From Natrialbaceae archaeon AArc-T1-2 (GTDB taxonomy: Archaea > Halobacteriota > Halobacteria > Halobacteriales > Natrialbaceae), in contig NZ_CP127174.1 in assembly GCF_030273315.1 (NCBI RefSeq), positions 2,914,001 through 2,978,000 of the forward strand: a stretch of DNA of 64,000 bases, read 5' to 3'. Both the position numbers and the translations under genes were made by a program. This document shows positions 31,974-51,890 of the stretch, piece by piece (position 1 is the first letter of the stretch; every line of letters starts with the position of its first letter). The notes beneath the pieces were generated by a model that saw nothing but the letters and a program-made list of their open reading frames with translations, ran no database searches and was not told the DNA's origin.

Positions 31974-33170
31974 TCATTCTTTCATCGCCGGCTGCTCCGT
32001 CGTCGACTCGACCCGGATGACCTGAAGAAGTAACAGAGCCGCGACCACACATCCGGTCGCGAGAAAGAGCCAGCCCGCTCTGTAGCCGACCGCGTCGGCG
32101 AGGTATCCGAACACTGGCGGCGCGAGGAGTCCGCCGGTGGTGAGTGTGAGCTGCCCGCCAGCGGTGGCGCTACCGATCTCTTCGACTTCGACGAGCGTCG
32201 CCATACAGGAGTAGTAGATACCCGTTAGACCGAGGACGAAGAACCCAAGTATCGCGAAAGCGATCGCGGCGAACAGCGGCGTCGACGATATCGAAACGAA
32301 GACGAAAAGTACGACACTAGCGAGTGTCTGTGCGAGCAGTATACCGCCAATTCGAGCCTGGGGGTCTCCTGGAAGGACGTCACTCAGCCACCCCATCACG
32401 ACCCGTCCCACACTGCCGAAGATCTGCAAGAGAGCGAGTACGACGCCGCCAAAGACGACCGAAGTTCCGATCGACTCCTCGACGTACAGGACGGTGTATC
32501 CAGTCGTCGTGAAAACTGCTGCACCCAAAAACAGTCCTGCGAGGACGAGACTCCGGTACGGGCGGTTCGACAACAGCGCACGGAAGTCGGGACGTCGCGA
32601 CGATCCGTCCGTGTCGCCACTCCGATAGTGAACGTAGAACAACACGGCAACGACGAGACCAACGCCTGCGATGACGAGAAACCCGGACTGCCAGAACAGG
32701 ATACCTGCAAGCCCCGTGATCAGCAGCGCACTGGCTCCGCTCCCGGCTGTGACTCCCACCTGTTTAATTCCGATTGCAGTGTTCTGACGCCCCGCCGTTA
32801 CGTTGTCGTAGATCGCCTTGTTGGTACCGGGCATCGCCGTTCCGTATAGCGATCCAAGACAGAAGGCCGCGACCAACAGGAGTACGAACGTCGGCGCGAC
32901 AGCGACGGCCAGCAGTGCAGTCGATAACCCGATCAGACCGATCGTGAGTATTCGCCGTTCGCCGAGCTGATCGGTCAGTGCGCCCAGCGGAAGCAAAAAG
33001 ACGGCGTACCCGAACGTGACCATCATGATCACGATACCAACGCGAAACCGCGTGAGTCCGAACGCGTCTCGAAAGAACGGAGTAGCGGCGTACACGGAAT
33101 AGTAACACAGACTCGCAGCAACCTGCCACGACAGTACGAGACCGACCGTTCGCCAATACGACTGCGCCAT
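31974..33170 (-). CDS. Major facilitator superfamily transporter
   Basis: 398 aa with 12 predicted membrane helices and the MFS motif between helices 2 and 3 (GALTDQLGERRILTIG). A second copy-like stretch MGWLSDVLPGDPQARIGG follows helix 8. The type resembles oxalate/formate or monocarboxylate antiporters (OFA/MCT-like), but the substrate is not readable. It is divergent from the gamma-glutamyltransferase gene across 145 bp. Confidence 0.88.
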   Translation of the reverse strand: MAQSYWRTVGLVLSWQVAASLCYYSVYAATPFFRDAFGLTRFRVGIVIMMVTFGYAVFLLPLGALTDQLGERRILTIGLIGLSTALLAVAVAPTFVLLLVAAFCLGSLYGTAMPGTNKAIYDNVTAGRQNTAIGIKQVGVTAGSGASALLITGLAGILFWQSGFLVIAGVGLVVAVLFYVHYRSGDTDGSSRRPDFRALLSNRPYRSLVLAGLFLGAAVFTTTGYTVLYVEESIGTSVVFGGVVLALLQIFGSVGRVVMGWLSDVLPGDPQARIGGILLAQTLASVVLFVFVSISSTPLFAAIAFAILGFFVLGLTGIYYSCMATLVEVEEIGSATAGGQLTLTTGGLLAPPVFGYLADAVGYRAGWLFLATGCVVAALLLLQVIRVESTTEQPAMKE

Positions 33171-33315
33171 TGTATCGGGGTGATTCGTGAGAGGAAAAAA
33201 TCGTATCGGCTTCGGCTAGAAGTGCGTCGCCGATAGAGACCGAGACGTTTTCACCACCGCTTCGGTCGTGGAAATCGCCCCGAGTTACTAATATCCTGCT
33301 CTCTCAACGGTAGCC

Positions 33316-34932
33316 ATGGTCGATCCTGACCTCGATAGATTCTCGTCGCGCCGATCGACGGTGTATGCCACCCACGGAGTCGTAGCGACTAGCCAACCGT
33401 TGGCAGCCGAAGCTGGCGTTGACATCCTGCGTTCGGGCGGAAACGCTTTCGACGCCGCCGTCGGAACCGCCGCCACGTTGAACGTGGTTGAGCCGGCTTA
33501 CACGGGACTCGGCGGGGACGTCTTTGCGCTGTATCGGACGGCCAGCGGGGAAACCGGTGCGATGCGAGCCTGTGGTGGTGCACCTGCCGAGGCCACTATC
33601 GAACGAGTCCGGGACGCAGTCAGCGATGGACACCCGTCCACGGCTACGATGCCGATGACCGGACCGCACACCGTCACAGTCCCCGGCACCGCTCGAGGGT
33701 GGGAGGCGACCGTCGAGGAGTTCGGTAACCTGACCCTTTCCGACGTACTTCAGCCGGCAATAAACTATGCCGTGGACGGATACCCGGTCACGGAAGTGAT
33801 CGCCGAGGCGTGGAAACAAGCCGAGGATCTATTTACAGACGAACACGCCCGCGAGGCGTACCTCGTCAACGGGGAGCGAGCGCCGAGGGTCGGTGAAACC
33901 GTCCGCTTTCCGGAGTTAGGTGAGTCGTTACGATCGATCGCCGACCACGGGGCGGACGTGGTGTACGAGGGCGAGATCGGAGAGGCTATCGTCGAAGAGG
34001 TACGGTCGAAAGGCGGGTTTCTCACGATCGACGATCTCGCCGACTTCGACGTCGAATTCCCGGAGCCAGTTTCGACGACCTATCGCGGTGCCGAAGTCTA
34101 CGAACTACCGCCGAACAACCAGGGACTGATCGCCCTCGAGGCGCTGAACATCGCCGCCGAGCTCGAGGCAGGCGCCGAACCGACGGGATCGGCCGCCCGG
34201 ATCCATAAACTCGTGGAGGCGATGAAGCTGGCCTTTCACGACGGCCACCGTTACATCACGGATCCCGACTACGAGCCGATCCCGCCGCTTGCTTCTCGAG
34301 GATGGGCTCGCAAGCGAGCGACGGCGGTCGGCCAGGAGGCGCTCGAGGACGTCTCGGTTGGCGTCCCGAATGCGAACGCAGAGGACGCGGATACGGTTTT
34401 ACTCTGTGTCGCCGACGACGAAGGCAACGTGGTCTCGTACATCAACTCCCGGTTCAAAGGCTTCGGATCGGGGTTGGTCGCTGGCGATACGGGGATCGCG
34501 CTCCAGAACCGAGGAGGATCGTTCTCTCTGGATCCGGATCATCCGAATCGGCTCGAGCCGGGAAAGCGTCCGTTCCATACGCTGATTCCCGGCCTCGTCC
34601 GATTCGAGGACGACGACTGGGCTGCCTTCGGCGTCATGGGTGGATACATGCAGCCACAGGGCCACTTGCAGGTTCTCTCACACGTTCTCGACGACGACCT
34701 CCCGCTTCAGCGTGCGCTCGACCAGCCGCGGTGGCGGTATCGTGAAGACGGCACGCTGGCAGTCGAAGACCGCTTCAGCGGTTCCCTCACGGCCAAACTC
34801 GTTCGGCGCGGTCACGACGTACGAATCGATCTGCCCTCGGGATTTGGGGGAGCACAGATCGCCCGAACCGACAGCGGAACGCTTTCGGCTGCCACCGATC
34901 CCCGGAAAGACGGTAACGCGACAGGGTACTGA
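33316..34932 (+). CDS. Gamma-glutamyltransferase-family Ntn hydrolase
   Basis: 538 aa, the normal precursor size. It starts with SSRRSTVYATHGVVATSQPLAAEAG and DILRSGGNAFDAAVGTAATLNVVEP, typical of GGT. The autocatalytic cleavage Thr is most likely in EDADTVLLCVADDEGNVVSYINS, and RFKGFGSGLVAGDTGIALQNRGGSF follows. There is no export signal, so it is probably cytoplasmic, like the YwrD-type branch. These enzymes split or transfer gamma-glutamyl or other acyl groups. Its role in the cluster is unknown; release of an amino compound before the following pathway is one option. Confidence 0.9.
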   Translation: MVDPDLDRFSSRRSTVYATHGVVATSQPLAAEAGVDILRSGGNAFDAAVGTAATLNVVEPAYTGLGGDVFALYRTASGETGAMRACGGAPAEATIERVRDAVSDGHPSTATMPMTGPHTVTVPGTARGWEATVEEFGNLTLSDVLQPAINYAVDGYPVTEVIAEAWKQAEDLFTDEHAREAYLVNGERAPRVGETVRFPELGESLRSIADHGADVVYEGEIGEAIVEEVRSKGGFLTIDDLADFDVEFPEPVSTTYRGAEVYELPPNNQGLIALEALNIAAELEAGAEPTGSAARIHKLVEAMKLAFHDGHRYITDPDYEPIPPLASRGWARKRATAVGQEALEDVSVGVPNANAEDADTVLLCVADDEGNVVSYINSRFKGFGSGLVAGDTGIALQNRGGSFSLDPDHPNRLEPGKRPFHTLIPGLVRFEDDDWAAFGVMGGYMQPQGHLQVLSHVLDDDLPLQRALDQPRWRYREDGTLAVEDRFSGSLTAKLVRRGHDVRIDLPSGFGGAQIARTDSGTLSAATDPRKDGNATGY

Positions 34933-35118
34933 CGAACTCGGCACGCGGGAGATGTCGTCATCTCCGTCTCCCTACCCAAGTAATTTATACGAGATACGTC
35001 AACTAACGGGACGCCTGTCCAGACGAGCACCGACTGATGCCAGCCGGTGAACTGATAGCCGAACCTGTGACAGGGGAACCGTCGGTACAAACAATTAAAC
35101 GTCAGAGATACACTACCA

Positions 35119-36132
35119 ATGCAAATCGATCGGGAACACGCAGAAGCGATCGCCACCAAAGCGTTTCGTACGAAAGGTCTACAGGTAGACGATGCATCGT
35201 TGGTTGCGGACGTCCTCGTTACGGCGGACGCATCCGGGAAAAGTTCACACGGACTGCTTCGATTACCTCGCTACGTCCGTGGAATCGAACACGGAAACGT
35301 CAATCCTGAGGGGGCCATCGAAATCGTCCGTGAGAGCGGGGCGACAGCGACGATAGATGGTGGTTCGCGCCCAGGACCAGTTGTTGCAGCGACGGCGATG
35401 GGGGAGGCCATGGACCGCGCAGACGAGTTCGGAATTGGCGCCGTCGGCGTCCACAACAGCAATCATCTCGGAATGCTGGGGTACTATACTCAGAAGGCTC
35501 GATCGGAAGGGTACATCGGCGTCGGTATGACGAATACCGAACCGGCGATGCCCCCGTACGGGGGAGCCGAACCCGTCCTGGGAACCAATCCGATTGCGAT
35601 CGGCCTCCCGACGGAGCCACCGTTTAATCTCGACATGAGTACGTCTGCAATCGCGCGTGGAACGGTACTCAAAGAGAAAGAAGCGGACGGCGCGATTCCG
35701 GACGACGTCGCGCTCGATGCAGACGGTGAGCCGACGACCGACCCCGAGGCTGCCCTGGACGGGACGATTCTCCCGTTCGGTGGGCCGAAGGGATCCGGTT
35801 TAGCGATCGCGGTAGAGGTTCTTGCCGGTGGACTCGTTGGGGCAGCTATGGGTCGCGACGTCACCGGAACGTATCACACCGAAGACCCCTGTACGAAAGG
35901 AGACCTGTTCCTCGCGATCGATCCAACAGCGTTCGCTGGAGACGGGTTCGTAGAACAGGCGAGTAGCTTTCTCTCCAATCTGAAAGACGAACCGACGGCT
36001 GCCGGGGTCGACAGTATCCGTCTCCCGGGAGAAGCCGCCCTCGAGCGCGAACGCGACGCAACGACCGTCTCGGTTGGTGACGATCTCTGGGAAACTGTCC
36101 GTTCGATCGCCGACGGTGAGACGGACGAGTAA
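35119..36132 (+). CDS. Ldh/ComC-family NAD(P)-dependent 2-hydroxyacid dehydrogenase
   Basis: 337 aa of the malate/L-sulfolactate/ureidoglycolate dehydrogenase family, which has a unique NAD fold: SSHGLLRLPRYVRGIEHG near the start, VGVHNSNHLGMLGYYTQKA, then GTNPIAIGLPTEP and FGGPKGSGLAIAVEVLAGGL. ComC of this family interconverts (R)-sulfolactate and sulfopyruvate. With SuyAB-type and D-2-hydroxyacid dehydrogenase genes close by, a sulfolactate role is attractive, but malate- or lactate-type substrates cannot be excluded. Plus strand, 186 bp after the GGT gene. Confidence 0.9.
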   Translation: MQIDREHAEAIATKAFRTKGLQVDDASLVADVLVTADASGKSSHGLLRLPRYVRGIEHGNVNPEGAIEIVRESGATATIDGGSRPGPVVAATAMGEAMDRADEFGIGAVGVHNSNHLGMLGYYTQKARSEGYIGVGMTNTEPAMPPYGGAEPVLGTNPIAIGLPTEPPFNLDMSTSAIARGTVLKEKEADGAIPDDVALDADGEPTTDPEAALDGTILPFGGPKGSGLAIAVEVLAGGLVGAAMGRDVTGTYHTEDPCTKGDLFLAIDPTAFAGDGFVEQASSFLSNLKDEPTAAGVDSIRLPGEAALERERDATTVSVGDDLWETVRSIADGETDE

Positions 36133-36521: not shown

Positions 36522-37580
36522 TCACATCAGGCCGGCGTCCTCGTAGGCCTGTTCAGCGGCCGGATGGAGTTCGAACGGCGTATCGTCGAACATCGCTTCG
36601 TCGGCTTCGAACATCTCGAGCGTATCGGTGGTCTGTGGAACCTGCTCGGCTTCCTCTATAACGCCGGAGACGAACATCTCGATTGCCTCGTCTGGCGCGT
36701 CGACGTGGGTTGCGATGTGGCCGCCATCGATCATGGTGTCGAGATCACGCTCGAGTCCGGGCAGTCCGCCCTCTTCTAGCGTGTGCGGATCGAGGCCGTA
36801 ATTGTCCTCGAAGAACTCCTGATCGTCCTCGGTCCAGTCGAGGAAGCGGGGGTCCCGGGTTGCTGTGATGTTTTCCAGCCACCCGACTGATCGACCACTC
36901 ACTGCCAGGATCGCATCGAGGTCCTCATCGAGGAACATATCTGCTGCGTCGTCCCACTCCGTCCGGACGAAACGGCCACCGTAGTCTTCGATCTGTTCCT
37001 GACCGTAGTTCGCCTCCTCGAGGACGGTGTCCCAGACGAAGCCACCGAACGTACCATCGGCTTGGTTCATCACCTCGATCGGGTACTCGTCGTCGGCTGC
37101 TTCCTGTAAGGAATCGTACGGGAAGTCAGGCTGTGTGAGGACGTAGTAGAACTGCTCTGACTGGTCGTTTATCACTGACCGAATGTTCGATGGTGGCGTG
37201 TCCCAGTCTTCCTCGTCGTATGGATCTTGGCCGGTTGCAGCCAGCGTTGCAGCAACGACCGTCGTGTGTGCCATATCGACTTCCTGGTCCTGCAGCCGGT
37301 TGTTGTTCCCGAGCCATCCACCCGGAAGCACGTTGTATCCGAGATCCGGATGCGCTGAGGATGCCGTAGAAAGCATCGACGTCATAATGACATATCCGGT
37401 TCCCCCGGGCGAGCCAGCAGCCGTCTGAAGCATGACGTCGCCTTCGGCCATTTCGGAATCGTCATCACCAGTTCCGGCCTCACCATTGAGATCCCCTTCG
37501 GTACACCCAGCGGCAGCTATCGCGCCTGCACTACCGATCGCTGTAAGCATCTGACGTCGATTGAGCTTGTTATTTTTCAT
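36522..37580 (-). CDS. TAXI-family TRAP transporter solute-binding lipoprotein
   Basis: 352 aa. Signal NRRQMLTAIGSAGAIAAAGC has twin Arg and a lipobox Cys, so it is anchored outside. The mature part follows the TAXI pattern: LQTAAGSPGGTGYVIMTSMLSTA, QDQEVDMAHTTVVAATLAATGQ, LTQPDFPYDSLQEA and a late EMFVSGVIEEAEQVPQ. TAXI proteins deliver organic acids to fused DctQM permeases by sodium-coupled transport. The matching permease starts at 38131 on the other strand. The substrate is inferred only from the neighbourhood (a hydroxy- or sulfo-acid). Confidence 0.92.
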   Translation of the reverse strand: MKNNKLNRRQMLTAIGSAGAIAAAGCTEGDLNGEAGTGDDDSEMAEGDVMLQTAAGSPGGTGYVIMTSMLSTASSAHPDLGYNVLPGGWLGNNNRLQDQEVDMAHTTVVAATLAATGQDPYDEEDWDTPPSNIRSVINDQSEQFYYVLTQPDFPYDSLQEAADDEYPIEVMNQADGTFGGFVWDTVLEEANYGQEQIEDYGGRFVRTEWDDAADMFLDEDLDAILAVSGRSVGWLENITATRDPRFLDWTEDDQEFFEDNYGLDPHTLEEGGLPGLERDLDTMIDGGHIATHVDAPDEAIEMFVSGVIEEAEQVPQTTDTLEMFEADEAMFDDTPFELHPAAEQAYEDAGLM

Positions 37581-37925: not shown

Positions 37926-38094
37926 GGGATGTTCGATTTTTCTCCTAACCAAATATAAAGGTTTCCATTATTTATTGATCGGTAATATAAATTACAATAA
38001 CGCAAACCCGTGAGACACTGTCCAGTAGCTGAAACTATATCTTTATGACATGAATAGAGCGTTGCAAGTACGTACTTCGAAGTTAGACAAAAGG

Positions 38095-38108
38095 TTTAAG
38101 TATAAAAG
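38095..38108 (+). promoter_or_regulatory. TATA box of the TRAP permease gene
   Basis: TTTAAGTATAAAAG lies 23-36 bases before the ATG at 38131. That spacing places the transcription start at or next to the ATG, so a leaderless mRNA is likely. This also decides the start codon: the frame is open upstream to 38050, but that stretch contains this promoter. Confidence 0.7.
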
Positions 38109-38130
38109 GCAGAGTTCTAAGCATAGTGCC

Positions 38131-40056
38131 ATGGATACTATTACCATAGGAAGATACGAGTCTAATCTTCGAACGATCGGCGCATATGGTATTTCAGCAC
38201 TTGCCATTATCACGTCGCTATTTCACCTTTATACGGGCGCGTTTGGTGTGTTTGGGGCGCTCATTCAACGACCCGTCCACGTGTACCTCCTCGCTGCCCT
38301 GACGTTTGCAATCGTTCCGTTCATGGGGGAGGAGAGAATCCGGTACCGAATCGTCGATCTCGTCCTCGTTACCTGTTCTCTCGGTGCGATGGGATACGTC
38401 CTCGTCGAATACTCCCGGCTTCTAAACGCGACCCCGTACGTCGGGATGCCCGAGACGATGGACTGGGTTGTCGGCGTCCTAAGCGTTATACTCGTAATTG
38501 AAGCGACGCGACGAATCGTGGGTCGGTTACTCGCTGCAGTGGCGATTCTCATACTCGTCGCCACGTTCTACGCGGACGTACTTCCGGCACCGCTTACGGC
38601 ACCCCGACTTCCTGCGTCGAACTGGATCGATGGGCTGTTCGTTACAACACAAGGGTTGTGGAGCGTCCCTGTTCGTGTCAGTGCATCGTTCATTTTCCTC
38701 TTCGTGGTCCTGGCAGCGTTCCTCGAGGCGACTGGTGCAGGCCGATTCTTGCTCGATCTGGCAAACGCCTTGGTCGGACACCTCGTCGGTGGTGCAGCGA
38801 AGGTGTCCGTCGTTGCGAGTTCGATCTTCGGGAGTCTCTCCGGAAGTGCGGCTGCTAACGTATACGGAACCGGGATATTCACGATCCCGACGATGAAAAA
38901 GTTCGGGTTCTCCTCTCGAATGGCTGGTGCGACGGAGGTGTCGGCTTCGAACGGCGGTCAGCTAATGCCGCCGATCATGGGAGCAGGTGCCTTCATTATG
39001 GCACAATTCCTCGGGACGGAGTACATCGTCATTGCACTCGCCGCGATCATTCCGGCGGCGTTGTACTACTTATCAGTGTACTTCTCTATCCACGCACAGG
39101 CGATCAAGCTGGATATCGATCCGGTACCAAAAGAGGAGCAAAAGAACGCACTCAACGTGCTGAAAGAAAAACCCGGTCAGGCGTCCACGCTCGCTCTTAC
39201 GGTCGGTGTATTGTTCTTCATGCTCATGCAGGGATACACGATCTACCGTTCGATCTTCTTCTCGATCGCGGTCATGATGATCGTGAGTTCCCTGCAACCG
39301 GATTCGAGACTCGGCGTCAAGGAACTCGTCGTCGCATTCGATAAAGGAGCCCGCAACGCCACGCAGATCGCGATGGCCTGTGCCGCCGCTGCGATTGTCC
39401 TCGGGGCGTTGAACATTTCTGGACTCGGCGTCGTCTTCGGTCAGATCGTGGTCGCGCTCTCTCAAGGAATCATTCCGCTGCTGTTGATACTCGTTGCAGC
39501 CTTCTCCATCATTCTCGGGTTCGGGATGCCGACGACGGCGGCATACATTTTGGCTGCCTCCCTTCTAGCGCCCGGACTTGCGGAGGTGGGACTCGCAGGA
39601 CTGCCGGGGCATTTCTTCATCTTCACGTTCGCCGTGTATTCGACGCTCACACCGCCCGTCGCTCTCGCAGCGTTCGCCGCCGGTCAGATCGCGGATGCAG
39701 ACCCCATCAGAATCGCTCTCATCGCGATGAAGATCGTTCTCCCCACCTTTATCATTCCAGCCCGGTACGTCCTCTACCCGGCAATTCTACTGGAGATGGC
39801 GTGGGCGTACGTGCTTCTTGACGTCTTCATCCTCTCGGTCGCCGTCATCGCGATCCAGGCGGGTATCTGGGGATGGCCGGTCAAAAACAAGATGGCACGC
39901 GGGTTCGCGACGTTCGGTGCACTGGTTTTGATCGTTCCACCACCGCTCCTTCCGATCGGCGTCATCGAACTGGCCGCTCTCGGCCTCGTGCTCGTGGCTT
40001 TCGCTGGCGTCTTACACGTCACGGCTGAACGTCGTGCACAGCAGCCAACGGCGTAA
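38131..40056 (+). CDS. TRAP transporter permease, fused DctQM (TAXI type)
   Basis: 641 aa from the ATG at 38131. A first block of four to five helices (DctQ-like, about residues 15-140) is followed by the large DctM-like part with GSAAANVYGTGIFTIPTMKKFGFSSRMAGATEVSASNGGQLMPPIMGAGAF and GMPTTAAYILAASLLAPGL, both hallmarks of TRAP fused permeases. It drives uptake of an organic anion with sodium. Its TAXI partner is divergent at 37580. A 77-aa membrane protein follows. Confidence 0.93.
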   Translation: MDTITIGRYESNLRTIGAYGISALAIITSLFHLYTGAFGVFGALIQRPVHVYLLAALTFAIVPFMGEERIRYRIVDLVLVTCSLGAMGYVLVEYSRLLNATPYVGMPETMDWVVGVLSVILVIEATRRIVGRLLAAVAILILVATFYADVLPAPLTAPRLPASNWIDGLFVTTQGLWSVPVRVSASFIFLFVVLAAFLEATGAGRFLLDLANALVGHLVGGAAKVSVVASSIFGSLSGSAAANVYGTGIFTIPTMKKFGFSSRMAGATEVSASNGGQLMPPIMGAGAFIMAQFLGTEYIVIALAAIIPAALYYLSVYFSIHAQAIKLDIDPVPKEEQKNALNVLKEKPGQASTLALTVGVLFFMLMQGYTIYRSIFFSIAVMMIVSSLQPDSRLGVKELVVAFDKGARNATQIAMACAAAAIVLGALNISGLGVVFGQIVVALSQGIIPLLLILVAAFSIILGFGMPTTAAYILAASLLAPGLAEVGLAGLPGHFFIFTFAVYSTLTPPVALAAFAAGQIADADPIRIALIAMKIVLPTFIIPARYVLYPAILLEMAWAYVLLDVFILSVAVIAIQAGIWGWPVKNKMARGFATFGALVLIVPPPLLPIGVIELAALGLVLVAFAGVLHVTAERRAQQPTA

Positions 40057-43464: not shown

Positions 43465-43794
43465 TCAGACCAGCAATCGGACGGCAAAGAGCAGGAAGAA
43501 CGCAGCGCCGAACAGCCAGACGACGAGGCTCGTTCGCCGGGGTGAAAGCCGCGTTTCGATCACGGTCGATCGAACTCCGAGGAAGGCATGGAGCAACACC
43601 AGCCCGAGTGTGAGATCGAGTATCGGCCGATAGATTCCCCACTCGACGAGTACAACGAACCCGTACTCCGGGTACAGCTGGACACCGACGTGAGCCGCAA
43701 GAAGCGCCACGAGGGCGAGTGCGCTCACCCGGTGCAGTACCCAGGGGAGGTATCCGATCGTCGCTGGCCCTCGGGTCGGCGTATCGGTGCTCAT
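43465..43794 (-). CDS. sdhD: Succinate dehydrogenase-like membrane anchor, SdhD type
   Basis: 109 aa from the ATG at 43794, overlapping the sdhC stop by four bases. Three helices; LPWVLHRVSALALVALLAAHVGVQL carries a His-Arg pair near the quinone site and a possible heme ligand, and LLHAFLGVRSTVIE is the second SDH-anchor motif. It would anchor the SdhAB-like catalytic part, whose genes are 4.7 kb away on the opposite strand. It is the last gene of the suyA-suyB-sdhC-sdhD strand. Confidence 0.85.
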   Translation of the reverse strand: MSTDTPTRGPATIGYLPWVLHRVSALALVALLAAHVGVQLYPEYGFVVLVEWGIYRPILDLTLGLVLLHAFLGVRSTVIETRLSPRRTSLVVWLFGAAFFLLFAVRLLV

Positions 43795-44150
43795 AGGCTC
43801 ACCCCCATGAGGATGACGAGTGCCGCCGATGCGCCGACTGTCAGCCAGAACGACAGCCGGTTCCCCGATGCGGTGAGCCCACCCAGTTCGACGATTACGA
43901 GGCGGATACCGTTGAACGAGTGAAAGACGAGGACCGCCAGGAGCGCGACGATTATCCACGTCGATGTTGGGTTGTAGACGCTCGATGGCGACGCCTGCAG
44001 GATCGGAACGAGTAGGTGAATGCCGATCCAAGCAAGTAATAGCCACCCCGTCAGCCGATGGAGCGTAAACGCTACGTGTCCAACCGCGAAGTTTCGCCAA
44101 CTGCGAGCGGCCAGTAGATCCCGCCCGTAGATGAGTTGCTCGTCATCCAT
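43791..44150 (-). CDS. sdhC: Succinate dehydrogenase-like cytochrome b subunit, SdhC type
   Basis: 119 aa from the ATG at 44150 (an upstream in-frame ATG adds 14 unlikely residues). Three helices with FTLHRLTGWLLLAWIGIHLLV and VFHSFNGIRLVIVELGG, the SdhC heme-b and quinone motifs. It pairs with SdhD, whose start overlaps its stop. It lies 104 bases downstream of suyB on the same strand, so anchor and lyase genes may share a transcript, an unusual arrangement for an SDH. Confidence 0.88.
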   Translation of the reverse strand: MDDEQLIYGRDLLAARSWRNFAVGHVAFTLHRLTGWLLLAWIGIHLLVPILQASPSSVYNPTSTWIIVALLAVLVFHSFNGIRLVIVELGGLTASGNRLSFWLTVGASAALVILMGVSL

Positions 44151-44254
44151 GTGTATGCTGTGAGTCGTCGAGTGGTGTGATTTGTATGACACCAGTGACG
44201 CCTGTATCGCCCAGGTGTCGTGATGGTCGTATACTGTGCGCCGATCGAAACCGT

Positions 44255-45418
44255 TCAGGTCGAGGGACCGATTCTGTGGATCGCGAACTGGCTTTCGCCG
44301 AGGACTTCCGAGAGCGTGTACTTCCCGTTTGCGACCTCCATAATCTCCTCCCAGAGCTGGTCGGTCGCCCAGTCGATGGGCTTGTCGCCGACTAACGCCT
44401 CGCTGACGTCGACGTCGGTCTCTTCGGGCACCCGTTCGGCGCTTCCGGGGTTCCCCGTAATCTTGATCGTCGGCATGATCGCGTTCGAGAGGGTGTGTCC
44501 CTGGCCGGTCGAGATGACCATGAAGTGAGCGCCGCCGGCACCGATACCGGTCACGCTCTCTGCGCCGTGTCCGGGCGTGTCCATGATGTACATTCCGGAT
44601 TCGTCGGGGATCTCCTCGCCGTAGTCGACGAGGTCCTGAATCGGGCCGTCACCGGACTTGACCAGCGCACCGAGAGACTTCTCCTCGATCGTCGTCAGCC
44701 CACCGTCCATGTTGTCGGGCGTCGGCTGGGCACCCCGGACGTCGTAGCCGGTCGCCTGGAGGCGTTTGTCCCAGTTGTCGACGTACTCGAGGATCTTTTC
44801 GGCGACGTCGTCGTTGACGGCACGCTCGGCCAGCCCTTCTTCACCACCGAAGAACTCCGGCGTCTCAGCGAAGACACCCCGTCCACCCTGCTCGATCAGC
44901 CGCCAGACGGCCCCTGCGGTCGCGTAGTGCTGACAGAGTCCGCTGGTCGTATCGGAGGTGGCGCAGTTGATTCCGAATGTGAGATTCGAGATGTCGTGTG
45001 GCTCTCGCTGCTGTGCGGAGGCGTCCTGGACCATCTCCTGGGCGGCCTCGACGGTCGCTTGCAGTCCGTTCATCACGCCTTTTTCACCGTGGATGTTGAC
45101 GCTTTCTGCGGGACGCCCCGTCTCCGCGACGTCTGCAGCCAGCTCGTCCCCGTCGACGCTCTCGCCAGCGTGTGCGACGACGACTGCACCGTAGCTGTTC
45201 GGATGCGTGGCATACCCCAGCAACGTCCGGTACGTCTGGAACACGTCCGGCTTGGTCTGACAGCGCCCCAGGGGGTGGGTGATCGGGACCGTTCCCTCGA
45301 CGATGTCGGCAGCGCGCTTTACCGTGTCGTTTGCGTACGGTGCCGTCGAGATGATCGGGACGTGGTTTCGGATGCCGATACTACCGTCGGGTCGCTCGTA
45401 TCCTAAGAATTCAGTCAT
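44255..45418 (-). CDS. suyB: UxaA/SuyB-family lyase, large subunit
   Basis: 387 aa. The UxaA/altronate-dehydratase fold starts EFLGYERPDGSIGIRNHVPIISTAPYAND and has THPLGRCQTKP, FGINCATSDTTSGLCQHYATAGAVWRLIEQGGRGVFAETPEFFGGE and MDTPGHGAESVTGIGAGGAHFMVISTGQGH. Family members eliminate water from sugar acids or, as SuyB with SuyA, sulfite from (R)-sulfolactate to give pyruvate. Separate large and small subunits plus nearby sulfite oxidase and exporter genes favour the Suy reading. Altronate- or galactarate-like dehydration is the main alternative. Confidence 0.8.
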   Translation of the reverse strand: MTEFLGYERPDGSIGIRNHVPIISTAPYANDTVKRAADIVEGTVPITHPLGRCQTKPDVFQTYRTLLGYATHPNSYGAVVVAHAGESVDGDELAADVAETGRPAESVNIHGEKGVMNGLQATVEAAQEMVQDASAQQREPHDISNLTFGINCATSDTTSGLCQHYATAGAVWRLIEQGGRGVFAETPEFFGGEEGLAERAVNDDVAEKILEYVDNWDKRLQATGYDVRGAQPTPDNMDGGLTTIEEKSLGALVKSGDGPIQDLVDYGEEIPDESGMYIMDTPGHGAESVTGIGAGGAHFMVISTGQGHTLSNAIMPTIKITGNPGSAERVPEETDVDVSEALVGDKPIDWATDQLWEEIMEVANGKYTLSEVLGESQFAIHRIGPST

Positions 45419-45436: not shown

Positions 45437-45760
45437 TCACTCGCTAATCCCTTCGATCGCTTCACTGTCGGACTGGTCGCCACGGCCGTAGTTGCTATCG
45501 ACGTTGTGTGTATGTACCCAGTCGCCAGCCTCGATATCTTGGCTGGCGTAGCCGATGCTCAATCCGTACTTGCATACAGTGTCACCTTCGTCGATGTCGG
45601 TGAGAGCCACTTTGTGTCCAAACGGAATGTCCTCGTTAACAGTGACCGTTCGAACTTCGTCGCCGACGGGGACGTCGACGACCTCACCCTCCTCAACCTC
45701 TCTGATGAAGGTCCCGACGTTGTCCTCCGGTGTGACGACTTCGATGTATTGCTCTGCCAT
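45437..45760 (-). CDS. suyA: UxaA/SuyA-family lyase, small SAF-domain subunit
   Basis: 107 aa from the ATG at 45760; the longer upstream frame lacks coding character and contains the promoter. The SAF domain reads VNEDIPFGHKVALTDIDEGDTVCKYGLSIGYASQDIEAGDWVHTHNVDSNYG, as in SuyA and the UxaA N-terminal domain; the H-x-H pair near the end is the expected metal or substrate contact. It stops 18 bases before suyB starts. Partner and caveats as for suyB. Confidence 0.85.
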   Translation of the reverse strand: MAEQYIEVVTPEDNVGTFIREVEEGEVVDVPVGDEVRTVTVNEDIPFGHKVALTDIDEGDTVCKYGLSIGYASQDIEAGDWVHTHNVDSNYGRGDQSDSEAIEGISE

Positions 45761-45761
45761 T

Positions 45762-45823: not shown

Positions 45824-46008
45824 GAACACGATTAGCTCCGGAGACGATGAACCGGACGTCGTCGAGATCCGTCGTGATTCGGTAAGGACCGATGCATCGC
45901 GGCGTCCTGACTTCGGAAGCGTGAAACGGCGAACGGCCTGGATAGTCGACGTCATTCACCGGAGACAAAACATATACTTCGTAGCCGATACGAGTGTACC
46001 GCCGTGAC

Positions 46009-46809
46009 ATGGTAACAGCTACTCTGGCCGCGTCGAGCGTCTACACCGTCGCTGGGATCGAACTCACCGCGTTCGAGGCCGTCCTCGCGCTTGGAATTCT
46101 TCTCCTCGGTGGTTTCGTCAAAGGCACCGTTGGGTTCGCAGTCGGTCTCATCACGGTGGCTGGACTCGTCCAGGTATTCCCTCCCCAGATCGCCTTAGTA
46201 GCGCTCTCGATCCCGTTTTTCGTATCGAACGTCGTCGTACTGGCCGGAGACGGTGTTCCTGTGGGGTTTCTCCGGGAGCAGATCCCGTTCGTGGTCGCTC
46301 TCGTCGTCGGTCTGTTCGCAGGTGTCTGGTTGCTCACCGTCCTTTCGCCGGAACTTCTGTACCTGTTCATCGCCGGGTACGTGATGCTCTTTCTCGGGTT
46401 CCAGCACGTCGAAGAGCGGATACAGGAACACGCCTCCAGCGACAGCGCGGGAGCGTTCTCGGGATCGCTTAGCGGTCTCCTCGGCGGCGCGGTGAGCGCA
46501 CCGGGCCCACCGCTTGTCATTCATACGTACCTGAACACGATCACGGATCGTCGGGCGGTGTTCGTAACCGGTGTCTCTGCACTGTTTCTCATCGCCCACG
46601 CCGTTCGAGTCCTCTTTCTCGCCCGCGCGGGTCTGTTACACGTCAGAGAGATCCTGCTTGGCGCTGTCTTTACCGTCCCGATCTTCGTCGGGGTGACGCT
46701 CGGAATCGCCTTCCGACCGCACATCGACGACGAGACGTTCACGCTGTTGATCAAGGTACTCCTGGCCGTGATCGGTATTCGGCTACTTCTGAACGGGTTC
46801 GGCTGGTAG
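46009..46809 (+). CDS. TauE/SafE-family membrane exporter
   Basis: 266 aa from the ATG at 46009 with about eight helices. The TauE/SafE repeats are LGGFVKGTVGFAVGLITVAGL in the N-half and GSLSGLLGGAVSAPGPPLVIHTYL in the C-half. Members export sulfite or sulfoacetate in sulfonate-degrading bacteria, among other anions. It lies beside the suyAB pair, divergent from it, which supports sulfite export. It converges on the lyase gene with ten bases between stops. Confidence 0.88.
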   Translation: MVTATLAASSVYTVAGIELTAFEAVLALGILLLGGFVKGTVGFAVGLITVAGLVQVFPPQIALVALSIPFFVSNVVVLAGDGVPVGFLREQIPFVVALVVGLFAGVWLLTVLSPELLYLFIAGYVMLFLGFQHVEERIQEHASSDSAGAFSGSLSGLLGGAVSAPGPPLVIHTYLNTITDRRAVFVTGVSALFLIAHAVRVLFLARAGLLHVREILLGAVFTVPIFVGVTLGIAFRPHIDDETFTLLIKVLLAVIGIRLLLNGFGW

Positions 46810-46819
46810 GGCCCGCAGG

Positions 46820-48322
46820 CTACGAGCGGATCGTATCGACGCAGTCGGCGAGTTCGTCACTGGCGTTCTCGAGCGCTTCGCGCCGTCCGTTGATGGTGAC
46901 AGCGTCCTCGTCGAGGTTTGCCCGTCGGTCCTGGATCATCCGCTGGACTTCTCTCGGAGCTGGACCGCCAGGAACGTCGTGAGCCTCGACGAACTCCCGA
47001 GGATCGAGCGCGGACTGAACGAACTCGTCGTCGATGTCGAGTTCGTCTCCGGTTATCTCGACGGCCGATTCGTTGACGAGGTCTGCGTCGACCTCGGTTG
47101 CGTCGAGGTTCCGATCCAGTGCACGCCCGACTAGATCGCCCACGATTCGGTGGGCCGTGCGGTACGTCAGGTCTGTCCGGCGGTCGATCTTGGCCGCGAG
47201 TTCGCTGCAAGATGCGAACCCTTCGGCCGCGAGTCGCTCCATCTCCTCGGCGTTGAACGTCGCGCTTCCGACGGTCCCATCGAGAAGCGTAAGCGACCGT
47301 TCAACCTCCTCGAACGCGTCGAACAGGGGGTGGACCGCGTTCTCTTCGACGTCTTTGATGTCCTGGAAGTTGGTGTTGTGAAGCGTCTCGAAGACGGCAG
47401 ACACGTGCCCTACCGCGTACGCTGCCCGCCCACGGACGTACTCGAACGGGTACGGGTTTTTCTTCTGTGGCATGAGACTGCTCGAGCCGGAGTATTCGTC
47501 GCCGATCTCGACGAAGTCGAACTCCCAGGTGTGCCACGTATAGAGGTCCTGGCAGAACCGGCTCAACGTCACCATCATGTTCGCCATCGCCGTGGCCGGC
47601 TCCATGTGATGGTCGCCACCGGAGACACAGTCTATCGTGTTCTCTTTGTAGCCGTCGAACCCCAGCAGATCTGCCACGAGCTGTCGATCAAGATCGTACG
47701 ACGCTCCGGAGAGGGCACCACAGCCGAGGGTGCACTCGTTTACCGTCTCGTACGCACCGAGCAGCCGCCGGGTGTCGCGTTCGAGCGAGTCGACGATTCC
47801 CAGCAGGTAGTGAGCGACCGTCGACACCTGCGCGTGCTGGTAGTGGGTCCACTGTGGCATGACCGTCTCGATCTCCCGTTCGGCGAGATCGAGGAGCGTG
47901 CTCCGTAGCGAAACGACGCACTCGAGCACGTCGAGTAACGACTCGCGTTCGACCATTCTGGCGAGCGGTTCGGGACGGGTTCGCCCGATGTTGATGTTGC
48001 CGGCCACGTCTTCGCCGACCCGTTCGTTGAGCTGGTACTCCATGTGCGAGTAGAAGTACTCGAGGCTCGGGTTGTACTCCCCGAGTACCTCCGGCCCTTC
48101 GTCCTCGAGATCCGCGAGTGCGTTCAGCAGTTGTGCGCCGTCGTCCTCGTCGACGATGCCCGATTCGACGAGCATCACCGTCCAGGCCTTGTTCGTCTCG
48201 ATGAGCGGGTAGAAGTAGTGGTCGCGCTTGAACTCGTACGTCGGTTGCTGGATCGTTTCCGTGTACACTTCGCCCGGTGCGGTCTCTAGTCGTTCCCGTG
48301 AGATTTTCTCGTCTGACGACAT
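46820..48322 (-). CDS. Argininosuccinate lyase-like protein (fumarase/aspartase superfamily)
   Basis: 500 aa from the ATG at 48322. Superfamily motifs: NINIGRTRPEPLARMVER, TVMPQWTHYQHAQVST (catalytic His), ALSGASYDLDRQLVADLLGF, and the signature loop GSSSLMPQKKNPYPFEYVRGRA with the catalytic Ser. The enzymes split C-N (or other) bonds, usually releasing fumarate. No argininosuccinate synthetase is nearby, and length and context argue against arginine synthesis. The neighbouring SDH-like complex could handle a fumarate product. Some superfamily members act on sulfonated acids in coenzyme M synthesis, so a sulfo-substrate is possible. Confidence 0.85.
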   Translation of the reverse strand: MSSDEKISRERLETAPGEVYTETIQQPTYEFKRDHYFYPLIETNKAWTVMLVESGIVDEDDGAQLLNALADLEDEGPEVLGEYNPSLEYFYSHMEYQLNERVGEDVAGNINIGRTRPEPLARMVERESLLDVLECVVSLRSTLLDLAEREIETVMPQWTHYQHAQVSTVAHYLLGIVDSLERDTRRLLGAYETVNECTLGCGALSGASYDLDRQLVADLLGFDGYKENTIDCVSGGDHHMEPATAMANMMVTLSRFCQDLYTWHTWEFDFVEIGDEYSGSSSLMPQKKNPYPFEYVRGRAAYAVGHVSAVFETLHNTNFQDIKDVEENAVHPLFDAFEEVERSLTLLDGTVGSATFNAEEMERLAAEGFASCSELAAKIDRRTDLTYRTAHRIVGDLVGRALDRNLDATEVDADLVNESAVEITGDELDIDDEFVQSALDPREFVEAHDVPGGPAPREVQRMIQDRRANLDEDAVTINGRREALENASDELADCVDTIRS

Positions 48323-48450: not shown

Positions 48451-48458
48451 CAAATCAC

Positions 48459-50216
48459 ATGGTTCAGTACGCTGAGCGAGCAACCGATGTAGCGATCATC
48501 GGTGCCGGAGGTGCAGGGCTGTTCGCGGCGATGTATGCCGACGATAACACCCCCGATGATCTCGACGTGACCGTCGTCGTCAAGAAACTCGCCGGGAAAA
48601 GCGGCTGCACCCGCATGGTGCAGGGAGGGTACAACGCAGTACTCCATCCAGACGACTCGATCGAGGACCACTACGTAGACACCATCGAGGGCGGAAAGTG
48701 GATCAACGACCAGGAGCTAGCGTGGACGCTGGTCGAGAACGCGCCGAAGGTCATTCGGAAACTGGAAAACGATCTCGGGGTCTTCTTCGACCGAGACGAG
48801 GACGGTAACATCCATCAAAAGCCGTTCGCGGGACAGTCGTTCGACCGGACGGTCCACAAGGGCGATCTGACCGGGATCGAGATCATGACGAAGATCCGTG
48901 ACGAGCTGTTGACCCGCGACGTGACGTTCCTCGAGGAGACCCGGGCCGTCGACCTCCTGACTCGAGACGGTGAGGTCGTCGGCGTCGTCGTGTTGGACAT
49001 GCGCTCCGGCGAGTTCGAGGTGATTACCGCCAAGGCCGTCGTCCTCGCTACCGGTGCCGGCGCGACGATGTACCGTATCTCGACGCCAGCTCTCGAGAAG
49101 TCTGCGGACGGACAGGCGATGGCGTACCGTCGAGACGCTCCGCTGCAGGACATGGAGATGATGCAGTTTCACCCGACTGGGTTGCTGGCGGGAGATACGA
49201 AACTCACGGGTGGCGTCATCGAAGAGGGAATCCGTGGGGAAGGAGCACATCTCTACAACGCCGAAGACGAGCGGTTCATGGAAAAGTACGCGCCCGAGGA
49301 GATGGAACGGGCGACGCGAGATATCGTTTCCCGGGCGAGCTACCAGGAGATCATCGACGGTCGAGGAACGGAACGCGGCGGTGTGTTACTCGATGCGACC
49401 CACCTCGGAACCGAGTTCGTCGAGGAGACGTTCCCCGGAATGACGGAGCGAACGCGAAACGTCGGACAGGATCTCTCGACCCAGCGAGTCGAGGTATCGC
49501 CGACGTCTCACTATCACATGGGAGGCGTCACCATCGACTCCGACTGTGGGACGGAACTGCCGGGACTGTTCGTCGCTGGGGAAGACGCTGGCGGTGCCCA
49601 CGGGGCGAACAGACTGGGCGGAAACGGCGTCGTCGACTCGACGGTACTCGGCAAGCAAGCCGGGGAGGCCGTCGCGGACTACGTCGAGGACCGACCGCGC
49701 CCGTCGTACGACTCAGAACAAGTAGAACGCGTGATCGAACGGGTCACAGCGCCTCTCGACCGGGAGGACGGAGCCGACGTATACGACCTCCGTGACGAAC
49801 TCGAGGACGTGATGTGGGAGCACGTCGGCGTCGTCCGAACCGGGGAGAAACTCGACACGGGAATCGAACGTATTTGCGGGATTCGCGACGCACTCGACGA
49901 CGTCGCGGTGTCGGGGACCCGCAGGTACAACCTGGAGTGGAACGAGTACATGGACCTCGAGAACCTCTCGCTGATCGCGGAGACGGTCGCACGAAGTGCC
50001 CGCTACCGGACGGAGAGCCGGGGGGCACACTACCGCGACGACTACCCCGAGCGCGACGACGACGAGTGGATCGCCAACGTCTACGTCAGGCGCACCGACG
50101 ACGGAATGGAGCTTTGGAAGGAAAACGCCGCGTTCAGTCGGACGCACCCGAACGACGTCGAGGACGCCCTCGTGACCGTGTCGGACGCTGACGACAGACG
50201 GGCAAAGAGTGACTGA
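48459..50216 (+). CDS. sdhA: Succinate dehydrogenase/fumarate reductase-like flavoprotein, Cys in place of FAD-linking His
   Basis: 585 aa. FAD motif VAIIGAGGAGLFAAM; substrate residues kept: MQFHPTGLL, RDIVSRAS (base Arg), SHYHMGGV and GANRLGGNGVVDSTVLGKQAGE. So it should act on a C4-dicarboxylate-like acid. In the segment that normally reads SHTVxAQGG, it has SGCTRMVQGG: Cys-50 replaces the His that holds FAD covalently, so flavin is either non-covalent or thioether-linked. That raises the possibility of fumarate reduction or a substituted succinate. Twenty bases before sdhB; anchors are on the other strand at 43.5-44.2 kb. Confidence 0.88.
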   Translation: MVQYAERATDVAIIGAGGAGLFAAMYADDNTPDDLDVTVVVKKLAGKSGCTRMVQGGYNAVLHPDDSIEDHYVDTIEGGKWINDQELAWTLVENAPKVIRKLENDLGVFFDRDEDGNIHQKPFAGQSFDRTVHKGDLTGIEIMTKIRDELLTRDVTFLEETRAVDLLTRDGEVVGVVVLDMRSGEFEVITAKAVVLATGAGATMYRISTPALEKSADGQAMAYRRDAPLQDMEMMQFHPTGLLAGDTKLTGGVIEEGIRGEGAHLYNAEDERFMEKYAPEEMERATRDIVSRASYQEIIDGRGTERGGVLLDATHLGTEFVEETFPGMTERTRNVGQDLSTQRVEVSPTSHYHMGGVTIDSDCGTELPGLFVAGEDAGGAHGANRLGGNGVVDSTVLGKQAGEAVADYVEDRPRPSYDSEQVERVIERVTAPLDREDGADVYDLRDELEDVMWEHVGVVRTGEKLDTGIERICGIRDALDDVAVSGTRRYNLEWNEYMDLENLSLIAETVARSARYRTESRGAHYRDDYPERDDDEWIANVYVRRTDDGMELWKENAAFSRTHPNDVEDALVTVSDADDRRAKSD

Positions 50217-50235
50217 TCCAAACCGAAATCTACCA

Positions 50236-50967
50236 ATGACCGAACAAGAATTCACCGTTCATCGCTACGATCCGGAGACCGACGATGAGGCACAGTTCGA
50301 ATCCTACGATGTCCCGATCACCGAATCGACGTCGGTACTCGACGGGCTGTTCTACATCCAGGAAACGCTCAACGAGAACCTCTCGATGCGGTTTTCCTGT
50401 CGGCAGGGTGTCTGTGGGAGCTGCTGTATGGAGATAAATGGAAAGGCGCGGCTCGCCTGTCAGACGCCAGTCACCGATCTCGCTGACCAGGACGTCACCG
50501 TCCGACCCATGTACAACTTACCAGTCATCAAGGATCTCGTCGTCGACATGGATCCGTTTTTCGAGAGCTTCGAGGAGATCGATCCATCCTTCGAAGCCGA
50601 CGGGAGAGACGAGGACAGCGAAACCGCAGTGATACCCCCCGATTCTCGAGAACGAGAAGTCATCGATCCTCGAACGGACTGTGTCGGGTGTGGTGCGTGT
50701 TACTCGAGTTGTAGCGTTGCGGGCGAGACGTATCTCGGCCCAGCCGCCATAAACAAGGCCGTAACGCTTCTGAAGGACTCGCGGGAGACGAAAACTGACG
50801 AACGTCTCGCTCGGCTCTCCGAGACCGATGGCGTCTGGGGCTGTCACGTCCAGGGCGAGTGTAGTGACGTGTGTCCCAAGGATATCCCCGTCTCGGAGGG
50901 TATCCAACTGCTCAAACGGGACGCCGTCAAACGTGGAATCAAAGCACGTCTCTTTTCCTCGGACTGA
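50236..50967 (+). CDS. sdhB: Succinate dehydrogenase/fumarate reductase-like iron-sulfur subunit
   Basis: 243 aa from the ATG at 50236 (a GTG at 50209 would overlap sdhA). The [2Fe-2S] site is SCRQGVCGSCCMEINGKARLAC, the [4Fe-4S] site CVGCGACYSSC and the [3Fe-4S] site CHVQGECSDVCPKDIP, so the full electron wire is present. An acidic insertion rich in Asp/Glu (about residues 125-150) links the two domains. It transfers electrons between the flavoprotein and the SdhCD-like anchor. Confidence 0.92.
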   Translation: MTEQEFTVHRYDPETDDEAQFESYDVPITESTSVLDGLFYIQETLNENLSMRFSCRQGVCGSCCMEINGKARLACQTPVTDLADQDVTVRPMYNLPVIKDLVVDMDPFFESFEEIDPSFEADGRDEDSETAVIPPDSREREVIDPRTDCVGCGACYSSCSVAGETYLGPAAINKAVTLLKDSRETKTDERLARLSETDGVWGCHVQGECSDVCPKDIPVSEGIQLLKRDAVKRGIKARLFSSD

Positions 50968-51076
50968 GAGCGATAGACGTACTGCTTCCAACTCTACAAT
51001 CGGAATTGTATCCGCCCTTCGAACGGGTAGCTATGCGTTGCTTTACCACTCCTCTCGATTCGATAGGATCGAACAC

Positions 51077-51096
51077 GTGATTTATATTCTGGTCAC
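51077..51096. promoter_or_regulatory. Inverted repeat over the TATA box of the IclR gene
   Basis: GTGA (51077-51080) and TCAC (51093-51096) flank TTTATATTC, which lies about 25 bases before the ATG at 51111. A short inverted repeat on the promoter is a candidate self-regulation site. Confidence 0.35.
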
Positions 51097-51110
51097 TGTT
51101 ATTGGCGCCT

Positions 51111-51890
51111 ATGCCAGAAAACAACGCGCGGGGGCGTGCAGTGAAGTCCGACGAGCGGTTGTTCGACATAGTCGAATTTATCAGGGAGCAGGATGGTGCA
51201 GGCGTCACCGAGATCGCGTCGGAGGTCGGACTCGCAAAGAGTACCGTCCACGGTCACCTGACCTCGCTTCGCCGACGGGGATACGTCGTCAAAACCGACG
51301 ACGGATACCGCCTCGGGCTGGAGTTTCTGAATCACGGTAAATACGTTCAGACCTCGTACAGCCTGTACACGATCGGTCAACAGAAGGTCAAACAGCTGGC
51401 GGCAAAGACCGACGAACGGGCGTGGTGTGTCGTCGAGGAAAACGGACTGGGATATTACCTTACGGGAGCCGAGGGGGACCATCCGGTACATCCGCCAGCC
51501 CGTATCGGGCAACGCGTTCACTTACACCCGCTGGCGTCCGGGAAGGCGATTCTCGCGCACTTACCGGAGTCACGCGTCGACGAAATCGTCGATCAGCACG
51601 GCCTGCCGGAGATCACATCGAACACGATCACCGACGAGGACGAGCTGTTCGCGGAGTTAGAGCGGACAAGAGAGCGTGGCTACGCCGTCAACAACATGGA
51701 GTCCCTATCCGGATTGTACGCGATCGGCGCGCCGGTCGTCGACGAGACCGGCGTCGTCAGGGGTGCACTATCGATTTCCGGACCCAAAAACCGACTGAAA
51801 GCCGAGAACAAGCAACACCGGTTCGTCGATCTCTTGCTCGGCGCGACGAACGAACTCGAGATCAACATTCGCAACCACCGTTCGATGTAG
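51111..51890 (+). CDS. IclR-family transcriptional regulator
   Basis: 259 aa from the ATG at 51111 rather than the upstream TTG. The winged helix reads EQDGAGVTEIASEVGLAKSTVHGHLTSLRRRGYVV; the effector domain has VHLHPLASGKAILAHLP and ESLSGLYAIGAPVVDETGVVRGALSISGPKNRL. It closes the putative sulfonate region, 143 bp after sdhB on the same strand, and is the best candidate for its regulator. It is close in length and motifs to the IclR at 10300, which suggests a shared origin. Confidence 0.93.
   Translation: MPENNARGRAVKSDERLFDIVEFIREQDGAGVTEIASEVGLAKSTVHGHLTSLRRRGYVVKTDDGYRLGLEFLNHGKYVQTSYSLYTIGQQKVKQLAAKTDERAWCVVEENGLGYYLTGAEGDHPVHPPARIGQRVHLHPLASGKAILAHLPESRVDEIVDQHGLPEITSNTITDEDELFAELERTRERGYAVNNMESLSGLYAIGAPVVDETGVVRGALSISGPKNRLKAENKQHRFVDLLLGATNELEINIRNHRSM

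Follow-up and report, generated by a model that had tools for sequence, protein, structure and literature searches.

The 64,000-nucleotide stretch of Natrialbaceae archaeon AArc-T1-2 analysed here (GCF_030273315.1, NZ_CP127174.1, positions 2,914,001-2,978,000 of the forward strand; hereafter the window) carries, at window positions 31974-51890, a gene island that, judged by its gene families and their neighbourhoods, very probably serves the catabolism of a C3 sulfonate. The scheme that we favour, and consider reasonably probable, is that 3-sulfopropionate is taken up, carried through a sulfonate version of the steps from succinate to malate and finally cleaved as sulfolactate. We name 3-sulfopropionate as the substrate with nearly as much confidence, because the genes for a succinate dehydrogenase (SDH)-like complex and an ArgH-like enzyme form the conserved core of islands of this type. 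The combination of a succinate-type dehydrogenase, a fumarate-type hydratase and a sulfolactate lyase in one cluster fits a route from 3-sulfopropionate through sulfoacrylate and sulfolactate to pyruvate and sulfite. The evidence leans, more slightly, towards a broader picture as well: a dedicated complex II paralogue with an altered flavin site would feed SuyAB, also in archaea, and the position of the hydratase would have been filled twice independently, in most bacteria by a class-I iron-sulfur fumarase, in haloarchaea and some actinomycetes by an ArgH-family enzyme.

Gene content of the island and the proposed route

Profile scans with Pfam and NCBIfam located every gene named in the first-pass annotation, with 11.7 kb from ComC to TauE. 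That annotation had described an island for a C3 sulfonate that combines a SuyAB-type lyase with ComC-like and SlcC-like dehydrogenases, genes for dealing with sulfite and a TAXI-TRAP system for uptake; the protein families and the gene neighbourhoods support this description. Two further genes between the D-2-hydroxyacid dehydrogenase and the lyase were not in the earlier gene list; they encode small membrane proteins resembling the anchor subunits that an SDH-like complex of four subunits would have. What was established directly is which genes are present, the families to which they belong, how far they are conserved and where they occur together. The island comprises the following genes:

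31974-33170, minus strand: major facilitator superfamily (MFS) transporter, accessory (Pfam MFS_1, 153.6 bits); adjoins the gamma-glutamyltransferase gene also in L133 (G386)
33316-34932, plus strand: gamma-glutamyltransferase (GGT)-like Ntn hydrolase (PF01019, 468.3 bits; TIGR00066, 368.5 bits, cut-off 357.85)
35119-36132, plus strand: ComC-like (R)-sulfolactate/sulfopyruvate dehydrogenase of the Ldh_2 family (NF040650, 349.8 bits)
36522-37580, minus strand: TAXI solute-binding protein (PF16868, 68.8 bits, above cut-off; TIGR02122, 57.7 bits, below the cut-off of 84.35)
38050-40056, plus strand: fused TRAP permease (TIGR02123, 530.6 bits, above the cut-off of 320.65)
41055-42305, plus strand: SorT/SoxC-like sulfite dehydrogenase-type molybdoenzyme (NF052247, 201.7 bits, below the cut-off of 570)
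42318-43289, minus strand: SlcC-like D-2-hydroxyacid dehydrogenase (Pfam 2-Hacid_dh_C)
43465-43794, minus strand: SDH-like membrane anchor of 109 residues (Sdh_cyt, 28.3 bits for the enclosing open reading frame)
43791-44192, minus strand: SDH-like membrane anchor of 133 residues, assigned from position and size; 4-base overlap with the 109-residue anchor
44255-45418, minus strand: SuyB-type lyase large subunit (PF20629, 235 bits; PF04295, 93 bits)
45437-45760, minus strand: SuyA-type lyase small (SAF) subunit (PF08666, 35 bits)
45994-46809, plus strand: TauE/SafE-type exporter (PF01925, 61.4 bits)
46820-48322, minus strand: ArgH-family enzyme, proposed sulfoacrylate hydratase (TIGR00838, 328.2 bits)
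48459-50216, plus strand: SdhA-like flavoprotein, proposed 3-sulfopropionate dehydrogenase, of a distinct subfamily of complex II
50209-50967, plus strand: SdhB-like iron-sulfur subunit (NF004616, 243.8 bits; TIGR00384, 222.9 bits; both above cut-off)
51102-51890, plus strand: IclR-type regulator (PF01614/PF09339)

We infer substrates, reaction direction and transport roles throughout from these assignments. The TAXI-TRAP transporter, perhaps together with the MFS transporter, would import the substrate, and an SdhABCD-like complex would oxidise 3-sulfopropionate, the sulfonate analogue of succinate, to sulfoacrylate and hand the electrons on to quinones of the membrane. Hydration of sulfoacrylate to 3-sulfolactate would fall to the ArgH-family enzyme, a step that a class-I iron-sulfur fumarase would perform in the bacterial versions of the cluster. 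SuyAB would eliminate sulfite from sulfolactate to leave pyruvate, while ComC and the SlcC-like enzyme would interconvert the sulfolactate enantiomers via sulfopyruvate. Sulfite would leave through TauE, with possible oxidation by the SorT-like enzyme, and the IclR protein would regulate the island. Sources of 3-sulfopropionate are homotaurine and the fermentation of sulfoquinovose in the gut.

The lyase and the haloarchaeal islands that carry it

By Pfam, the lyase consists of a separate SAF small subunit and a GD_AH large subunit, which is the architecture of SuyAB, and the window's genome contained one match to the lyase family. A tblastn search of the large subunit against plasmids returned ten haloarchaeal plasmids at 83-87% identity, followed by a drop to 42%. 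Among 391 haloarchaeal genomes, searched at a threshold of E 1e-100 or better, SuyB was present in 15, in 20 copies at 81-100% including the window's own, and identity within the haloarchaeal clade was 81-89%. Haloarchaeal lyases and bacterial SuyB together formed a 38-row side opposite the dehydratases with support of 99/95 in two samplings, in unrooted trees with long branches; a firm grouping with sugar-acid dehydratases, set beforehand as the outcome that would speak against a sulfolactate lyase, was not seen. The SuyB of a Bacillus locus (L058), inside an SdhA-FumAB cluster, was 46% identical to the haloarchaeal one and joined the haloarchaeal rows in the tree, a placing that carries a long-branch warning; in the remaining 27 bacterial loci that have SuyB, it matched the bacterial protein at 58% or more. 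The Pfam search for outgroup sequences gave 4 genomes with a match among 59 haloarchaea. Overall, the SuyB tree agrees marginally with a role as sulfolactate lyase and does not decide the matter alone.

The main argument for activity on sulfolactate is that three different upstream modules converge on this one lyase, which is linked, by family rather than by activity, to genes of sulfolactate-forming and sulfite-export type. In the neighbourhood survey, 28 of the 29 loci of the haloarchaeal SuyB clade were sulfonate-type islands of three kinds, and the remaining one, near a contig end, was unclassified. Annotations were used for some of these loci (one record had none), naive open reading frame calls on high-GC loci were too noisy and were discarded, and the ArgH-like, SuyA and D-2-hydroxyacid dehydrogenase queries were shortened by one or two N-terminal residues. 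The three kinds were distributed as follows:

sulfo-Entner-Doudoroff (sulfo-ED)-like, 18 loci: L003, L004, L005, L007, L008, L009, L011, L132, L134, L135, L138-L141, L143-L145, L147
2,3-dihydroxypropane-1-sulfonate (DHPS)-type, HpsN-like, 4 loci: L010, L131, L136, L142
window-type, 6 loci: the window, L002, L006, L051, L133, L137

The sulfo-ED-like set comprised GH31, an enolase-superfamily dehydratase, a Gfo6-type dehydrogenase, a dihydrodipicolinate-synthase-like aldolase, an aldehyde dehydrogenase, ComC and a sugar ABC transporter, and some of these loci were truncated where a record or contig ended, or missed one member. Their sugar substrate is unsure, because the one GH31 protein tested (L004) scores as an alpha-xylosidase (610.6 bits, above the cut-off of 606) and reaches 303.5 of 553 bits with NF007746, presumably the YihQ model, which weakened a sulfoquinovosidase label for it. 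The DHPS-type set comprised an HpsN-like histidinol-dehydrogenase homologue, a short-chain dehydrogenase/reductase (SDR), a TRAP transporter and the same SuyAB clade. Two genomes carried all three types, one within about 70 kb (G386, C1 at about 690-760 kb) and one over three replicons (G336; C2, C3 and C5).

SuyA, SuyB, TauE, the ArgH-like enzyme, SdhA, SdhB, both anchors, the IclR regulator and the TRAP permease were present in all six window-type loci, about 10 kb or less from SuyB. TAXI and GGT each occurred in five of the six and ComC in four, and the SlcC-like and sulfite-oxidase-like genes were found in the window only. The SlcC-like dehydrogenase had 60-62% matches in two sulfo-ED-like islands (L007 and L134), and a CTBP-type D-2-hydroxyacid dehydrogenase lay directly past GGT in G336 (L148). 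Of the 391 genomes, four, the window's among them, encode the SdhA-like protein (at 71% or more, the next match being at 41%); exactly the same four, all of which have SuyB, encode the ArgH-like protein (at 68% or more, with 39% for the next match).

The complex II-like proteins and the proposed hydratases

The window's SdhA-like protein was only 36% identical to the genome's own SdhA. Closer relatives were encoded on bacterial plasmids (47-57%, with next matches at 38% or less), where SdhA-, SdhB-, SdhC- and SdhD-like genes lay beside a two-subunit class-I fumarase (of the TtdA/FumA family in the two tested), TauE and TTT, TRAP or other transporters; the Methylobacterium neighbourhood additionally held SuyAB, an SlcC-like oxidoreductase and ComC. 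In an alignment of 91 SdhA-like proteins, H238, E256 and R287 (window numbering) were kept in all rows and H351 and R385 in 88, the other three rows being cut off; we take these five to be the catalytic residues. Two other sites set the subfamily apart. At the position that we take to be the histidine carrying covalent flavin adenine dinucleotide (FAD) in complex II, all 91 proteins have cysteine, a count partly selected by the search pattern, and at what is presumably the carboxylate site, glutamate replaces threonine or serine, which the pattern did not select. The genome's own SdhA has histidine and serine at these sites and its NadB-like protein serine at both. For the conserved cysteine, residue 50 of the 48459-50216 protein, a cysteinyl-FAD link or a non-covalent flavin would both be possible.

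A scan of named genomes for SdhA-like loci (stretches of up to 10 kb on each side; 49 were long, i.e. 15 kb or more) was evaluated for the best 80 of at least 561, so the counts describe the closest relatives. These came from Acidobacteria, Bacillota, Actinomycetota, Chloroflexota, Planctomycetota, Verrucomicrobia, Pseudomonadota and others; Roseovarius nubinhibens ISM is not represented in this set. SdhB was found in 72 of the 80, FumA in 68, FumB in 70, SuyB in 29, ComC in 30 and SlcC in 21 (47, 47, 47, 22, 22 and 12, respectively, of the 49 long loci); FumA or FumB occurred in 70 (47 of the long loci) and a fumarase together with SuyB in 27. Similarly, among 200 Burkholderiaceae genomes, 34 carried SuyB and 19 the SdhA-like gene (three with one in-frame stop), every one of the 19 also being among the 34 (P = 1e-17 on the assumption of independent genomes, which does not hold), and in 17 of the 19 the two genes were on one contig within 11 kb. 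A succinate-semialdehyde dehydrogenase-like gene, whose product would be suited to 3-sulfopropionaldehyde, was located near the NT-26 cluster, with a weaker match near the R. jostii cluster. The SdhA-like protein is, on sequence grounds, a distinct complex II subfamily spread across many bacterial phyla and mostly located near class-I fumarase, and the related bacterial clusters point to the same pathway.

The ArgH-like enzyme is a second, divergent copy; a housekeeping reading was rejected because the genome's other ArgH scores 477 bits against 328 here. All eight members of its clade (six archaeal, two actinomycete) had GRTRPEP in place of GRSRND, which we take to be the substrate-carboxylate motif of argininosuccinate lyases, and kept the catalytic loop; the four comparison rows had ARSRND (three) or GRSRTD (one). 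An ArgH-like gene (53% or more) was found in only three of the 80 loci, those of Haloarcula amylovorans (L051), a Pseudonocardiaceae metagenome-assembled genome (L066) and Tamaricihabitans halophyticus (L068), and all three were without FumAB, so that the two hydratase types occurred together in none of the 80. FumAB was likewise absent from all six window-type loci (as searched within the loci), the L066 and L068 genomes had FumA matches at 27-29% only, and of the seven loci among the 80 that had neither hydratase, five were covered by less than 13 kb of sequence. Because it is found where the class-I fumarase is absent, and combines GRTRPEP with an intact catalytic loop, the ArgH-like enzyme would most simply hydrate a fumarate-like alkene. 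Sulfoacrylate occurs in the chemistry of two relatives in the superfamily, XcbC and XcbD. Going by the names of their NCBIfam models, both belong to the synthesis of coenzyme M from C3 sulfonates. Filing the window's protein as XcbC was rejected at 258 bits with NF052535 against a cut-off of 575.

Accessory genes, alternative readings and known systems

The ComC-like protein scored best of five models with the L-sulfolactate dehydrogenase NF040650 (next, ureidoglycolate dehydrogenase at 224.3 bits), below the cut-off of 500, and its best PDB match was the L-sulfolactate dehydrogenase 2x06; it probably works like a sulfolactate dehydrogenase, and we do not claim membership in that family. A PDB search with the TAXI protein gave no match at E 0.01. 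A possible role of the GGT-like hydrolase is to free the sulfonate from a conjugate, either an amide or a gamma-glutamyl compound. Elsewhere in the window, a Hachiman-type defence pair (HamA, 149.6 bits; HamB, 704.4 bits) lies at 24452-27408. The HamB match stops at position 631 of the 871 in the profile, and the gene ends, in a low-GC stretch, next to an open reading frame at 27379-28719 that we took as an insertion-sequence gene and that had no Pfam match at E 1e-10. A tryptophanase/tyrosine phenol-lyase-like gene (21202-22548; 628 bits to the tryptophanase subfamily model) lies outside the island. To the left of the island are an Orc1/Cdc6-like replication protein (17377-18813) and an OrfB/IS605-type gene (15334-17058), which, together with the plasmid-borne homologous islands elsewhere, hint at an integrated replicon.

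Several findings weigh against the proposed route. Identity between the haloarchaeal lyases and the classical bacterial SuyB proteins tested is only 32-37%, a branch with 100/100 support separates the former from 22 classical SuyB rows, and the approximately unbiased (AU) test against a grouping with haloarchaeal UxaA reached only p = 0.043, a marginal value from unrooted trees; a second AU test was uninformative because the tree itself already contains, at 100/100, the split that it addressed (16 haloarchaeal-type rows plus dehydratases versus the 22 classical SuyB). SuyB is lacking in the stretch of 27 of the 49 long loci. Nineteen of those 27 genomes have a SuyB match of E 1e-60 or better elsewhere (18 at 61% or more, G402 at 36%), leaving nine without a SuyB of 61% or more and eight without any such match, and SdhA with fumarase could serve ordinary succinate metabolism. 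Replacement of the FAD-linking histidine by cysteine makes the reaction direction uncertain, loss of this histidine being linked to poor succinate oxidation, and it is not obvious how the change from threonine or serine to glutamate would suit a sulfonate. With the argininosuccinate-lyase model TIGR00838, the ArgH-like protein scores above the cut-off (328.2 versus 279.5 bits), and we know of no lyase of this subgroup that acts as a hydratase. Finally, GGT has no place in the scheme although it occurs in five of the six window-type loci.

The alternative that survives best, an improbable one in our view, is that 3-sulfolactate or cysteate is imported, racemised by ComC and SlcC and cleaved by SuyAB, with the SDH-like and ArgH-like genes as accessories. 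It draws on the ComC-like and SlcC-like genes of the window and on the occurrence of this SuyAB clade in other sulfonate-type islands, and it resembles the first-pass annotation, which had taken sulfolactate as the likely import and the SDH-like and ArgH-like genes as linked extras. The latter are, however, a core conserved in six of six window-type loci, compared to four for ComC and one for the SlcC-like gene (with the CTBP-type dehydrogenase further out in L148), the SdhA-like protein with a hydratase recurs beside SuyAB across bacteria, and this core points to 3-sulfopropionate.

Slightly less probable again is another succinate-like sulfonate, for example sulfosuccinate, which would be dehydrogenated and hydrated to a sulfomalate, converted by ComC oxidation and decarboxylation to sulfopyruvate, and passed on through sulfolactate to SuyAB. 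The same enzyme classes would fit, and ComC is present in 30 of the 80 SdhA-like loci, but this route needs the oxidation step everywhere, the L002 and L133 stretches have no ComC or SlcC match, and we know of no natural route of this kind. It is unlikely, further, that the island runs in reverse, with sulfolactate dehydrated to sulfoacrylate as an electron acceptor that is reduced to 3-sulfopropionate. Enzymes without a covalent FAD link are better at reduction, in line with the cysteine of the SdhA-like subfamily; against this, the presence of SuyAB and TauE in the cluster of every one of the six window-type loci suggests that sulfite is released, and several carriers belong to largely aerobic groups. 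Least probable of all is a sugar-acid dehydratase in a region of ordinary carbohydrate or dicarboxylate catabolism, which could appeal to the large subunit's only NCBIfam match (galactarate dehydratase, at 133.8 bits where the cut-off is 730.85), its only PDB match (GarD, 6u7l) and the AU result, and which we rejected on the break in the plasmid tblastn search, the 99/95 placing with SuyB in unrooted trees and the sulfonate-type neighbourhoods, with sulfite/sulfate exporters and ComC-like and HpsN-like partners in related loci.

In the published record, PMC11489063 (2024) cites a thesis for the conversion of homotaurine through 3-sulfopropionate and sulfoacrylate to sulfolactate in Roseovarius nubinhibens, and describes bacterial 3-sulfopropionate degradation as otherwise unreported, save for that paper's own finding that Bilophila respires 3-sulfopropionate. 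The mechanism of this breakdown in Bilophila is called unclear in a 2026 review (PMC12890257), which also states that no sulfoquinovose pathway has been characterised in archaea, and PMC10468875 notes suyAB in Halorubrum. Within the open-access literature searched, we found no genes assigned to the route through 3-sulfopropionate and sulfoacrylate, and no paper joining sulfolactate with succinate dehydrogenase and fumarase. If our proposal holds, archaea join the organisms that mineralise organosulfonates.

Compared to known systems, the SDH-like complex shares with complex II and fumarate reductase the flavoprotein, the iron-sulfur subunit, the two membrane anchors (both in six of six window-type loci) and the catalytic His/Glu/Arg/His/Arg set, and differs in the cysteine at the FAD-linking position, the glutamate in place of threonine or serine and the tie to SuyAB. 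Similarly, the ArgH-like enzyme shares its family, the GSSxMPQKKN loop and the TH motif with the argininosuccinate lyase, EDDS lyase and XcbC branch of the fumarase-aspartase superfamily, and is set apart by GRTRPEP, a score far below the XcbC cut-off and its occurrence without class-I fumarase. The lyase resembles the (2R)-sulfolactate sulfo-lyase SuyAB of Paracoccus and Cupriavidus pinatubonensis in its two-subunit SAF and GD_AH make-up, its sulfonate gene context and, more tentatively, its placing in the unrooted trees, while the haloarchaeal clade sits on a long separate branch at 32-37% identity (46% to L058). As in the SlcC/ComC sulfolactate racemisation system of Chromohalobacter, both dehydrogenase families are present in the window, but SlcC-like genes occur in one and ComC in four of the six window-type loci, and a TAXI-TRAP transporter takes the place of the bacterial importer. 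Lastly, the homotaurine route of Roseovarius nubinhibens follows the same proposed chemistry; no genes assigned to it were found in the open-access literature searched, whereas the islands described here offer candidate genes for each 3-sulfopropionate step, in archaea and across bacteria, and make the route directly testable.

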